The notes below the pieces were generated by a model, which searched no databases, was not told where the DNA came from, and saw only the letters and a list, made by a program, of their open reading frames with translations. Positions 35,158 to 38,613 of a stretch of DNA of 64,000 nt are shown here, one piece after another. The first letter of the stretch is position 1. Every line of letters starts with the position of its first letter. Position numbers and translations under genes: made by a program. The DNA comes from Cryobacterium roopkundense (GTDB lineage Bacteria > Actinomycetota > Actinomycetes > Actinomycetales > Microbacteriaceae). The stretch covers positions 558,001-622,000 of the forward strand of contig NZ_JACHBQ010000001.1 of assembly GCF_014200405.1 (NCBI RefSeq). Direction: 5' to 3'.

Positions 35158-36661
35158 CTAGGAACGCAGGGCGAGCGTGAAGGGCAGCACGGCCGAGGCG
35201 CCGCTTCGGCGCAGCAACCGGCCCGCCACTGTGAGCGTCCACCTGCTGTCGGCCACGTCGTCGATGAGAAGCAGCGGTTTGCCGGCGAACGGTTGGAGTG
35301 CTGCGTCGAGTTCCGGTCCCACCTCGAACCGGTCCCACACGTTCGACAGCCGGTAGGCGCTGTTGCCGCCCGCAGTTCCGGTAGGGCCGCCGTTGGCGGG
35401 GGAGAGCTCGCCGAGCCAGGGCAGGCGGCCTACCTCCGAGAGGGCCCTGGCCACTGAGTTGATGAGCAACGGATGCTGCCGCGACGGCATCGTGACGACG
35501 GCCGCTGGGCGCTCGTGCCACTTCCATTCCGCGAGCACGCGAACGCAGGCGGCCGTCATTGCCTGGCTGGCCGGGGCATCCGCTGCCTGAGACTCGAACA
35601 CCTCGCGCAGCGCGCCTCCCCAGCCGAGGTCGGTCAGCCGGGCGAGCGCGCGACCCTCCGACAATCGGTCGCCAGGGGCGATCTTGCCGGTTGCGTTTAC
35701 GCCGAGGTTCGCCACGCCGGTGGGCCACTGGGCCCGCGCGTCGAGGATGACGCCCACCCGGTCGAGTGAGGCGGCGGCGGCCGAGGCGGCCTCTTCCCGC
35801 ACGTCGAGGGGGTACCACGGGGTGGTGCAGTTGTCGCAGCGACCGCAGGGAACCGCGGTCTCGTCGTCGAGGGCGCGTTGCAGAAACTCCATGCGGCAGC
35901 CCGTGGTGGTCTCAAACTCGATCATGGCGCGCTGCTCGTGCAGCCGGGCAGCGGCAATGCGCTCGTAGCGGTCGCGGTCGTAGGTCCACGGGTCGCCCGT
36001 CGAGACCCAGCCGCCCTTCACCCGGCGCACGGCGCCGTCCACATCAAGCACCTTGAGCAGCAACTCAAGCGGGGTGCGGCGCAGGTCGACTCGCGCCTCG
36101 AGGGCTTGGGTGGAGAGGGGGGCTCCGCCGTTCTCCGTGAGTGCGCGAAGCACAGACTCGGCTTTGACCTGGTTCGGCATCGAAGCGGTGGCGAAGTAGT
36201 GCCAGATGGCCTCGTCTTCGGTGCCGGGTAGCAGCAGCACGTCGGCGTTTTCGGTGGCGCGGCCGGCGCGGCCCACCTGCTGGTAGTAGGCCACGGGCGA
36301 GGAGGGCGCCCCGAGGTGAAGCACGAAGCCCAGGTCGGGTTTGTCAAAGCCCATGCCGAGGGCGCTCGTGGCCACGAGGGCCTTGACCTCGTTGTTCTTG
36401 AGCAGCCCCTCCGATTGTTCCCGCTCGCTCGTGTCGGTCTGGCCGGTGTAGGCGCGCACGGCGTGGCCGGCGTCGCGCAGCAACCGGGCGGTGTCTTCGG
36501 CCGCTGACACGGTGAGGGTGTAAATGATGCCGCTGCCGGGAAGTTCGCCGAGGTGGCTCAGCAGCCACGCCAGCCGGGCGCGGGAATCGGGCAGCCTGAG
36601 CACCCCGAGGCGCAGCGAGGTGCGGGCGAGCGGCCCTCGGATGGTCACAACAGCAGAGCCT
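35158..36661 (-). pseudogene. RecQ-family helicase with PRTase-like tail, C-terminal part cut off by IS110
   Basis: Downstream part of a helicase gene whose first 207 codons lie beyond the IS element at 37991-38613. It contains helicase motifs IV-VI (GIIYTLTVSAAEDTARLL, ALGMGFDKPDLGFVLH, QQVGRAGR), a zinc-binding PCGRCDNC cluster, and a C-terminal phosphoribosyltransferase-like segment KPLLLIDDVADSRWTLTVAGRLLRRSG. The first in-frame GTG (36648) is not a natural start. Without the IS the whole protein would be about 710 aa. RecQ with such a tail is known from actinobacteria; the tail's role is unknown. Confidence 0.88.
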
Positions 36662-36679
36662 TCAGACCCCCCGGTTGTC

Positions 36680-36905
36680 GAGCCTGTCAGTGATGATGGT
36701 TACAGGGGGTTGGCCCGGTCTGACTCAGAGCCTGTCTGACGCTTTGGTTGTCTTGGTCTCGATGCGTCGACCGGTGTCCAGCCCCCGAACGCATTGTCGC
36801 GTTCGGGAGCACCACCATGACTTAATAGGAGCTTGACTCCAGCCTCTTCACTGACTTGTCTGACGGTGCCCCTGAACACTGACCCTCAAACAGAAGGGCT
36901 GTATT
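36680..36905 (+). ncRNA. predicted IS110 bridge RNA with target- and donor-binding loops
   Basis: Limits are approximate. A short stem-loop (CCTGT/ACAGG, 36683-36706) is followed by a putative target loop: CAGAGCCT at 36726-36733 equals the left flank of the insertion (36654-36661), and GTCTCGATGC at 36756-36765 is the exact complement of the right flank (37989-37998). A 9-bp hairpin (36784-36807) separates this from a putative donor loop: ATAGGAGC at 36825-36832 equals the element's right end (37983-37990), and GTCTGA at 36858-36863 complements TCAGAC at its left end (36662-36667). This is the guide logic described for IS621-type bridge RNAs. Confidence 0.65.
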
Positions 36906-36909
36906 CAGC

Positions 36910-37977
36910 ATGACCTATTCCCGCAAGGATCTGATCCTCGGCGTCGATACGCACAAAGATTTTCATCACGCGGCGGTGATCAACCACGTCGGAAAATCGA
37001 TCGCCGACCGGAAGTTCGACGCCACCTCCGCCGGCTACTCCGACCTCATCGCCTGGGCGACCGGCGTCGGCCGGATCGGCCGCGCCGGCGTCGAGGGGAC
37101 CGGGTCCTACGGCGCCGGCCTCACCCGCGAACTCACCCGCCGTGGCATCCCCGTCATCGACGTCATCGCGCCGGATAAGCAGCTGCGGCGCCTGCGCGGC
37201 AAGACCGACCAGATCGACGCTTACAACGCGGCCCGCGCCGTCCTCAACGAGCTCGCCACCGCCGTCCCGAAGACCCAGGACGGCTTCGTGGAGGCCCTGC
37301 GCGTGCTCCGCACCTCCCGCCGCTTGCTAGTCAAACAGCGCACCGAGAGCATGAACCAGCTGCAAGGCCTGATCGTCAGCGCCCCCGCAGACCTGCGCGT
37401 GAGCCTCGCGAAGCTCAAGGCGAAGAACCTGGCTCTGCGCTGCTCAAAACTCCCCGTGCGCAAGGCCGACGACCTCGTCATGACCGAAACGAAGAATGTC
37501 CTCCGCTCCCTCGGCAAACGCTATTTGGAGTTGCTCACAGAAGCCGACCGGCTGATGAAACGCCTCGGCGCCATCGTAAAAGAACACGCCCCGGAACTGC
37601 TCGCCGTGCACGGCGTTGGACCGGACGTCGCCGCGACAATGCTGATCGTCGCCGGCGAAAACGTCGACCGCCTCAACAACGAATCCGCCTTCGCACACCT
37701 CATCGGCACCGCCCCAATCCAAGCCTCATCCGGCAAGACCAACCGACACCGATTGAACCGCGGCGGCCACCGCCAAGGCAACTCAGCGGCCTACCGAATC
37801 GTCATGGTCAGGATGAAATCCCACGAGAAAACCCGCGACTACGTAGTCAAAGCCCTCGCCCGCGGAAAGACCAAACGCGAGGCCATGCGCCTCCTCAAAC
37901 GCTACGTCGCACGAGAGATATTCCAAATCCTCATCACCATCAGAGAACGCCACCAACAAGCCGCAATCTCAGCTTGA
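36910..37977 (+). CDS. IS110-family DEDD transposase/recombinase
   Basis: The 355-aa protein has the N-terminal RuvC-like DEDD domain (Asp13 in LGVDTHKD, Glu62 in GVEGTGSYG, Asp100 and Asp103 in GKTDQIDAYNAARA) and the C-terminal Tnp_20 domain with HGVGPDVAATMLIVAG and the catalytic serine region QASSGKTNRHRLNRGG (Ser273/Ser274). Length is normal and no stop interrupts it, so the element may be active. It would use the RNA from the upstream noncoding end to choose target and donor. Confidence 0.95.
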   Translation: MTYSRKDLILGVDTHKDFHHAAVINHVGKSIADRKFDATSAGYSDLIAWATGVGRIGRAGVEGTGSYGAGLTRELTRRGIPVIDVIAPDKQLRRLRGKTDQIDAYNAARAVLNELATAVPKTQDGFVEALRVLRTSRRLLVKQRTESMNQLQGLIVSAPADLRVSLAKLKAKNLALRCSKLPVRKADDLVMTETKNVLRSLGKRYLELLTEADRLMKRLGAIVKEHAPELLAVHGVGPDVAATMLIVAGENVDRLNNESAFAHLIGTAPIQASSGKTNRHRLNRGGHRQGNSAAYRIVMVRMKSHEKTRDYVVKALARGKTKREAMRLLKRYVAREIFQILITIRERHQQAAISA

Positions 37978-37990
37978 CATCTATAGGAGC

Positions 37991-38613
37991 ATCGAGACAC
38001 CGCCGGTCGCGATCTGCTCCGCCACATCGGTCACCACCCGGCTGTTCGCCGTGGCTGTCGTGGCGAGCACGGGTACACCCGCGGGCATCTCGGCGATCAG
38101 GTCGCGCAACCGCCGGTAGTCCGGGCGAAAGTCGTGGCCCCAGTCGGAAATGCAGTGCGCCTCGTCGACCACGAGCAACCCCACGCGGGCGATGAGCGCC
38201 GGCAGCTGCTCGTCGCGAAAGGCTGGATTGTTCAGGCGCTCCGGTGACACGAGCAGCACGTCCACCTCGTCGTTCTGCAGTTGTTGCAGCACGTTGCTCC
38301 ACTCGTGGGCGTTCGAGGAGTTGATGGAGACCGCGCGCACTCCCGCCCGGGCGGCGGCGGCCACCTGGTCGCGCATCAGCGCGAGCAGCGGAGACACCAG
38401 GATCGTAGGCCCTGCACCCTGCCGGCGTAGCAACAGCGTGGCGACGAAATACACGGCCGACTTGCCCCAGCCGGTGCGCTGCACCACGAGGGCCCGTCGC
38501 CGCTGGTCGACGAGGGTCTCGATCGCCTCGTACTGGCCGTCGTGAAAGTCGGCGTCGGGTCGTCCCACGAGGGTGCGCAGGATCTCGAGAGCGGATGCGC
38601 GGGTGTCGGTCAT
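37991..38613 (-). pseudogene. RecQ-family helicase, N-terminal part cut off by IS110
   Basis: Contains the start (ATG 38613) and helicase motifs I-III: Q-type FHDGQYEAIETL, Walker A RTGWGKSAVYF, VSPLLALMRDQ, LLVSPERLNN, DEAHCISDWGHDFRPDY and LATTATANSRV. After VAEQIATGGVS the reading frame runs into the IS end and stops at 37981. The remaining motifs lie at 35158-36661. This fragment alone lacks the second RecA domain and cannot be a working helicase. Confidence 0.9.

Follow-up and report, generated by a model that had tools for sequence, protein, structure and literature searches.

A Cryobacterium IS110-group element whose predicted bridge RNA agrees with its insertion sites copy by copy

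We analysed a window of 64,000 nucleotides from the genome of Cryobacterium roopkundense (contig NZ_JACHBQ010000001.1, positions 558,001 to 622,000; an actinobacterial host, as the preliminary description had supposed), in which a RecQ-like helicase gene is interrupted by an insertion sequence lying in the opposite orientation (Table 1). Five copies of this element, at five sites with one target, are present in the genome, which is 4.53 Mb long in 2 contigs. The sequence common to these five copies runs only from 36678 to 37997 and, once the target is known, a span of 1305 bp fits all five of them. The left end at 36662 and the length of 1,329 bp given in the preliminary description have to be corrected; the element starts at 36689, and 1329 is the sum of 1305 and 24 bp that lie outside. 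Two copies in this genome (L001 and L002) are identical across the element, which suggests recent movement. A search of phages gave no match to the element, and one of plasmids gave partial matches only, none covering 80% of it. A scan of genome contigs with the transposase found one near relative (G019) and seven distant ones, the latter being left out; a transposase search of 396 genomes of the order (E up to 1e-90) found five genomes, four besides its own, and the elements of those four were later reached via the RNA models described below.

Table 1. Features of the interrupted helicase locus (positions are those of the window)
Feature	Position	Strand	Remark
RecQ-like helicase, interrupted, C-terminal part	35158..36648	-	
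Left target half GAGCCTG, host DNA, REP-like palindrome	36680..36686	+	uninterrupted in relatives' helicase linker
Target core TC	36687..36688	+	from copy comparison
IS110-group element, 1305 bp, including donor core TC at right end	36689..37993	+	ends from five own-genome and six other full genus copies
Right donor AGTGA, element left end	36689..36693	+	from copy comparison
-10-like GATGAT	36692..36697	+	17 bp from TTGACA only when ends are joined as a circle; putative promoter
Predicted bridge RNA core	36705..36884	+	span of covariance models R1 and R2
Left target guide GAGCCTGTC	36728..36736	+	C/T at 36732 varies with the target
Right target guide GTCTC	36756..36760	+	pairs with GAGAC
Core complement GA and handshake TGC	36761..36765	+	complementary to donor right end GCA-TC
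Left donor guide ATAGGAGC	36825..36832	+	equals the element's right end
Right donor guide TCACTGAC	36848..36855	+	TCACT, core complement GA, handshake C
Transposase, 355 aa, DEDD_Tnp_IS110 and Transposase_20	36910..37977	+	
-35-like TTGACA in right end	37974..37979	+	
RecQ-like helicase, interrupted, N-terminal part	37981..38613	-	open reading frame continues into element
Left donor ATAGGAGC, donor position 7 (A) and donor core TC	37983..37993	+	
Right target half GAGAC	37994..37998	+	from copy comparison

The target of all 11 full copies (five in the element's own genome and six in G019, G024 and G066) reads GAGC[C/T]TG-TC-GAGA[C/T], with the core TC on both target and donor sides. This is a REP-like pattern, TYGAGCYTGTCGARA, with 28 sites in the genome of the element and between 21 and 158 in each of five relatives; read backwards, the pattern has 0 sites in each of the six genomes. 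All right junctions (16/16) read TC-GAGA followed by C (11) or T (5), such that at right-flank position 14 a T, forming a G:T wobble, replaces C in 5/16. Relatives with an uninterrupted helicase gene, to which the preliminary description had looked for the empty site, do exist: the exact uninterrupted palindrome, the 17-mer GTCTCGACAGGCTCGAC, is found in the helicase linker of four of the 19 that we fetched (L050, L055, L056 and L064), and the remaining 15 have other linkers in what is a highly variable region. In those four linkers REP-like palindromes lie in frame and encode the peptide VSTGST, one locus having two exact copies. When the window flanks are joined at the core, the frame stays open for 717 codons, stop counted, and the linker contains GGVSTGSTTGG; thus the earlier observation that removal restores the host frame holds at both lengths, but only removal of 1305 bp yields the VSTGSTT linker of the relatives.

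The transposase matches PF01548 (4e-21) and PF02371 (Transposase_20; 1e-14), both above the curated cut-offs, and its alignment to IS621 (8wt6) matches D13, E62, D100, D103 and S274, residues whose roles are described in PMC11208158 (the offset of 2 relative to the residue numbering of that paper is our own reading). It is preceded by 221 bp and followed by 16 bp of element sequence, a long left and a short right end. By every feature testable here the element belongs to the IS110 group: it has both Pfam domains, the catalytic D/E/D/D and serine, the long left and short right end, guides in the order left target (LTG), right target (RTG), left donor (LDG) and right donor (RDG), a short core common to target and donor, and a position-7 handshake. 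The IS1111 group was considered and rejected; it would be expected to carry its bridge RNA in a long right end, which here measures 16 bp.

A search of Rfam with E up to 1 gave no match, so a covariance model was built from the element and its kin. The left end folds better than shuffled sequence, with a z of -3.34. In the consensus structure, over 24 distinct sequences, 89.3% of cells are paired and both partners vary in 33 of the 51 pairs. Covariation scores 0.475, compared with 0.170 (sd 0.010) after shuffling and no more than 0.105 after sliding; these values come from an alignment that was fitted to the model and so is biased in favour of structure. Positions 36816-36821 form a conserved stem with 36858-36862, and GTCTGA (36858-36863), formerly read as the right donor guide, is one side of it; the real guide is TCACTGAC, which is complementary to the left junction GTC-AGTGA. 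Likewise, the 9-bp hairpin described earlier forms only in a single-sequence fold, whereas across relatives 36796-36807 pairs with 36871-36883. In the consensus there is also pairing among some of the guide bases, between 36726-36730 and 36758-36764, by pairs that fail to form in 7 to 16 of the 24 sequences; that the poor pairs are those with guide bases is expected of loops.

The left target guide is identical to target positions 1-9. The preliminary description had found CAGAGCCT at 36726-36733 and again at 36654-36661, where it is indeed present, and had correctly recognised a left target guide there, but the flank match that it chose lies 24 bp outside the junction. It was right about the left donor guide, ATAGGAGC being present both at 36825-36832 and at 37983-37990. 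On the donor side a natural co-change is seen in L138, where the right end reads GGACC rather than GGAGC and the left donor guide is altered likewise.

A left-end search of 57 genomes of the genus located 18 places in 6 genomes. One of these, in G016 (L019 / L112), is a remnant without a left junction and was excluded; in its left end a deletion runs exactly from the GAGCTTGTC of the target to the GAGCTTGTC of the guide, two 9-bp copies forming a direct repeat that is owed to the guide itself. As the preliminary description would have it, the sites of the other copies do match the guides: in all 17 copies with a left junction, guide position 5 equals the flanking target base (7 C and 10 T). 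These are independent insertions, since their flanks differ. The agreement is not imposed by the supply of sites, as C sites make up 9/28 in G000, 135/158 in G019, 33/73 in G024, 69/136 in G066 and 20/37 in G042, and yet in G019, where C sites prevail, six of six copies are T-guided and occupy T sites. The switch of guide and target between C and T occurs inside G000 and also inside G024. The chance of 17/17 is 4.8e-9 as a product of site-pool frequencies, or 1/19448 as a table probability, both of them rough because guides are common by descent among copies and the site pool consists of matches of one pattern. If guide base 36732 sets the target, then swapping 36732 alone should swap the preference between GAGCCTGTCGAGAC and GAGCTTGTCGAGAC.

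Relatives with other targets were found by the covariance models in other genera and families. Model R1, made from nine sequences only (the element and its nearest kin), matched in 13 of 398 family genomes, at loci that keep the conserved stem frame and have different guides. For 29 loci in eight target classes the fit of guides to their own class was 8.07 of 9 on the left and 4.08 of 5 on the right (wobble included), against 4.15 and 2.12 to other classes, and the true assignment of guides to classes was the best among 40,320. The left junctions in this test were set by hand, by means of boundaries common among copies and the sequence complementary to the right donor guide; an automatic repeat of the placement moved the junction of L141, with a worse fit. 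Model R2, built from loci that R1 had found, matched in 66 of 396 order and 30 of 398 family genomes (overlapping sets), among the at most 6 candidates scored per genome. This gave 46 loci outside both models, whose ends were found automatically from donor guides alone. Here, with 36 distinct guides, guide identity over left target positions 1-6 came to 4.08 of 6 for own flanks and to 1.51 for other loci, and 72 of 115 right positions formed Watson-Crick pairs, against a mean of 32 (23 distinct guides); on left and right alike, the fit to own flanks was reached by 0 of 20,000 reassignments. L015, L186, L187, L188 and L189 were left out of these tests as repeats, together with two partial matches. 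The left fit was poor at L162, L175, L183, L201, L203, L204, L205 and L206 among the 46, some of the ends being doubtful, and three of 47 located right ends (L193, L202 and L206) are without a TC core.

Taking these results together, we give a probability of about 0.95 to the reading that this is a complete IS110-group insertion sequence with a two-loop bridge RNA in its left end, which would form a circle with a promoter at the joint and insert by core exchange without site duplication. The sequence basis for this is made up of the ends, the target, the empty-site orthologues, the conserved fold, the guide-flank agreement and the catalytic residues; the copies and the cross-element tests strongly support the original claim that this is an IS110 element with a bridge RNA readable, in IS621 order, against its insertion site. 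For the steps beyond, namely transcription, circle formation, the position of cleavage and present activity, we infer the course of events from IS621 and ISEc21 (PMC11208160, PMC11208158, PMC11187229). Loop 1 would read the REP-like palindrome, with the left guide on GAGCYTG plus core TC and the right guide on GAGAC, and loop 2 the element's own joined ends. Excision as a circle would place a TTGACA-17-GATGAT promoter across the joint (TTGAC, at promoter distance from the left end, is found in 32 of 33 right ends), and this promoter would drive both the bridge RNA and the DEDD transposase; the transposase would then join the circle to the target at the core, probably cleaving after the C of the core and leaving no target-site duplication.

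Since present activity is something that we infer, the element might be a relic, once mobile and no longer so; this is unlikely given the intact transposase with its catalytic residues, the two identical copies, and the intact RNA and ends. A second alternative is that the guide does not choose the site at all and was rewritten later from the flank, by recombination between the 9-bp copies in target and guide. That such copies can recombine is suggested by the G016 deletion, which runs exactly from one GAGCTTGTC to the other. However, the C and T guides sit on linked haplotypes with further differences at 36702, 36727, 36745, 36755 and 36788, and each guide haplotype occurs at two or three matching sites, which fits a choice made by the guide first, so that we regard later rewriting as quite improbable. 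It is still harder to believe that the transposase protein reads the palindrome directly, the guide-like stretches being an inherited resemblance. Every copy of the element does use the same type of target, and exact palindrome sites are plentiful, numbering 28 to 158 per genome in five genomes that carry the element, but direct recognition would account neither for the single-base agreement in 17/17, nor for copies within one genome that differ in guide and site with transposases 99-100% identical to the query, nor for the six copies of G019 all being at T sites when 135 of its 158 listed-pattern sites are C, nor for matching guides in relatives with unrelated targets. The geometry with ends at 36662 and 37990 and GTCTGA as right donor guide can be dismissed: CAGAGCCT and TCAGAC are present where it needs them and removal of 1329 bp keeps the host frame, but that left end is in none of the four other copies, GTCTGA is a stem strand, and the relatives' linkers keep the palindrome that it would delete.

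Within the bridge-RNA reading, the bases that follow the right guides deserve separate consideration. In IS621 these bases pair, at positions 6-7, with the strand that comes from the other partner (PMC11208158), and the element's own position-7 handshake consists of T:A and C:G. Counting only loci with a located TC right end, and one locus for each distinct guide set, we find pairing between donor position 7 and the base following RTG-GA at 34 of 35 loci (30 Watson-Crick and 4 wobble); T:A, C:G and A:T are all present, and the 30 were reached by 0 of 20,000 reassignments. Contrary to a strict handshake, the same base could pair with position 7 of its own target at 25 of the 35, wobble counted. 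At core position 8 the donor has T at these 35 loci and the target has A (27), T (6) or G (2). The RTG base for position 8 is A in 35/35 and fits the donor, although, being invariant, it shows no covariation; the RDG base tracks target position 8 in 39 of 41 distinct guides (left ends set by five right-donor bases alone), as T:A in 30, A:T in 8 and T:G in one, the other two being misfits.

Thus, as the RTG fits the donor and the RDG follows the target at position 8, we think it probable that in this actinobacterial IS110 lineage the extended right guides are complementary to the products of insertion: the RTG and its following bases to the right junction (donor 7-9 and right target), and the RDG and its following bases to the left junction (target 7-9 and right donor). 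Handshake pairing would then extend to position 8, and only position 9 (C) would be truly shared core. Because the window element has TC as its core on donor and target sides alike, the effect at position 8 can be observed only through its relatives. Such product-spelling guides would also account for the 10-nt match across the right junction that had been seen earlier: GTCTCGATGC at 36756-36765 does complement 37989-37998, but it is not all target, as had been thought, its 10 nt being divided among the right target (5 nt), the core (2 nt) and the right end of the element itself (3 nt). If position 9 alone is shared, position 8 of a target core could be picked without regard to the donor, and the design rule for bridge RNAs would shift slightly, the shared core being perhaps one base rather than two.

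Insertion at sites chosen by a guide is already a known mechanism, and its natural redirection is in print for ISMch6 (PMC11187229); the switch of guide and target within a genome, and the position-8 rule, may be new to specialists. The element resembles IS621 (IS110 group, E. coli; PMC11208160, PMC11208158) in its transposase domains, catalytic residues, left-end bridge RNA, guide order, 9-nt left target guide, handshake base 7, REP target and core-centred insertion. Unlike IS621, it has the core TC rather than CT, a right target guide of 5 nt plus core, a left donor guide spanning donor positions -1 to 6, a different REP and an actinobacterial host, and in its relatives donor and target disagree at core position 8. 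With the seekRNAs of ISEc21 and ISMch6 (PMC11187229) it shares an upstream non-coding RNA, a bottom-strand match that precedes the top-strand match, and natural redirection through guide changes; there, redirection is between two elements 72% identical in transposase, whereas here it is among near-identical copies of one genome at many sites. ISKrh6 of Kocuria rhizophila, going by the accessible part of its report (PMC12500396), is likewise an actinobacterial IS110 element with an upstream RNA-determining region, and in that part, unlike here, guides and target are not worked out. The accessible part of an older report (PMC1525189) places other IS110-family elements (ISPpu9, ISPpu10, ISPa11 and ISRm19) inside REP sequences, but these are proteobacterial and predate the discovery of bridge RNA. 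A limited literature search found no paper linking IS110 with Cryobacterium, nor bridge RNA and IS110 with actinobacteria.

Interest in bridge RNAs comes both from their promise as programmable tools for recombination and from their standing as a third type of system guided by nucleic acid, and this element is an unusually clear natural example, in which the site changes together with one guide letter among sister copies: a compact natural experiment of near-identical copies in one genome, where a single guide difference tracks a single target difference. It also opens a set of actinobacterial relatives with several target classes and predicted guides. One of these classes consists of IS3-type transposase genes, with insertion after the GDSYD codons, at the D of that motif. 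The relatives with the right target guide GCGTT (L133, L134, L142, L148, L160, L164, L165, L167, L168 and L191) appear to be aimed at these codons, like ISEc21 in E. coli, the rve domain having been checked for L164 and L167.

In the group of L135 only 1 to 3 of the 5 flank bases fit the right guides; at L135, L145, L151, L154, L156 and L157 the left flank is always CCACCGAC, and it is the right flanks that misfit the right guide. Lastly, the bridge-RNA model also matched a second IS110 family in the element's own genome, with five copies (L006-L010) whose left junctions end in GTCTC and whose right junctions, seen in four of the five, start with GAGAC.
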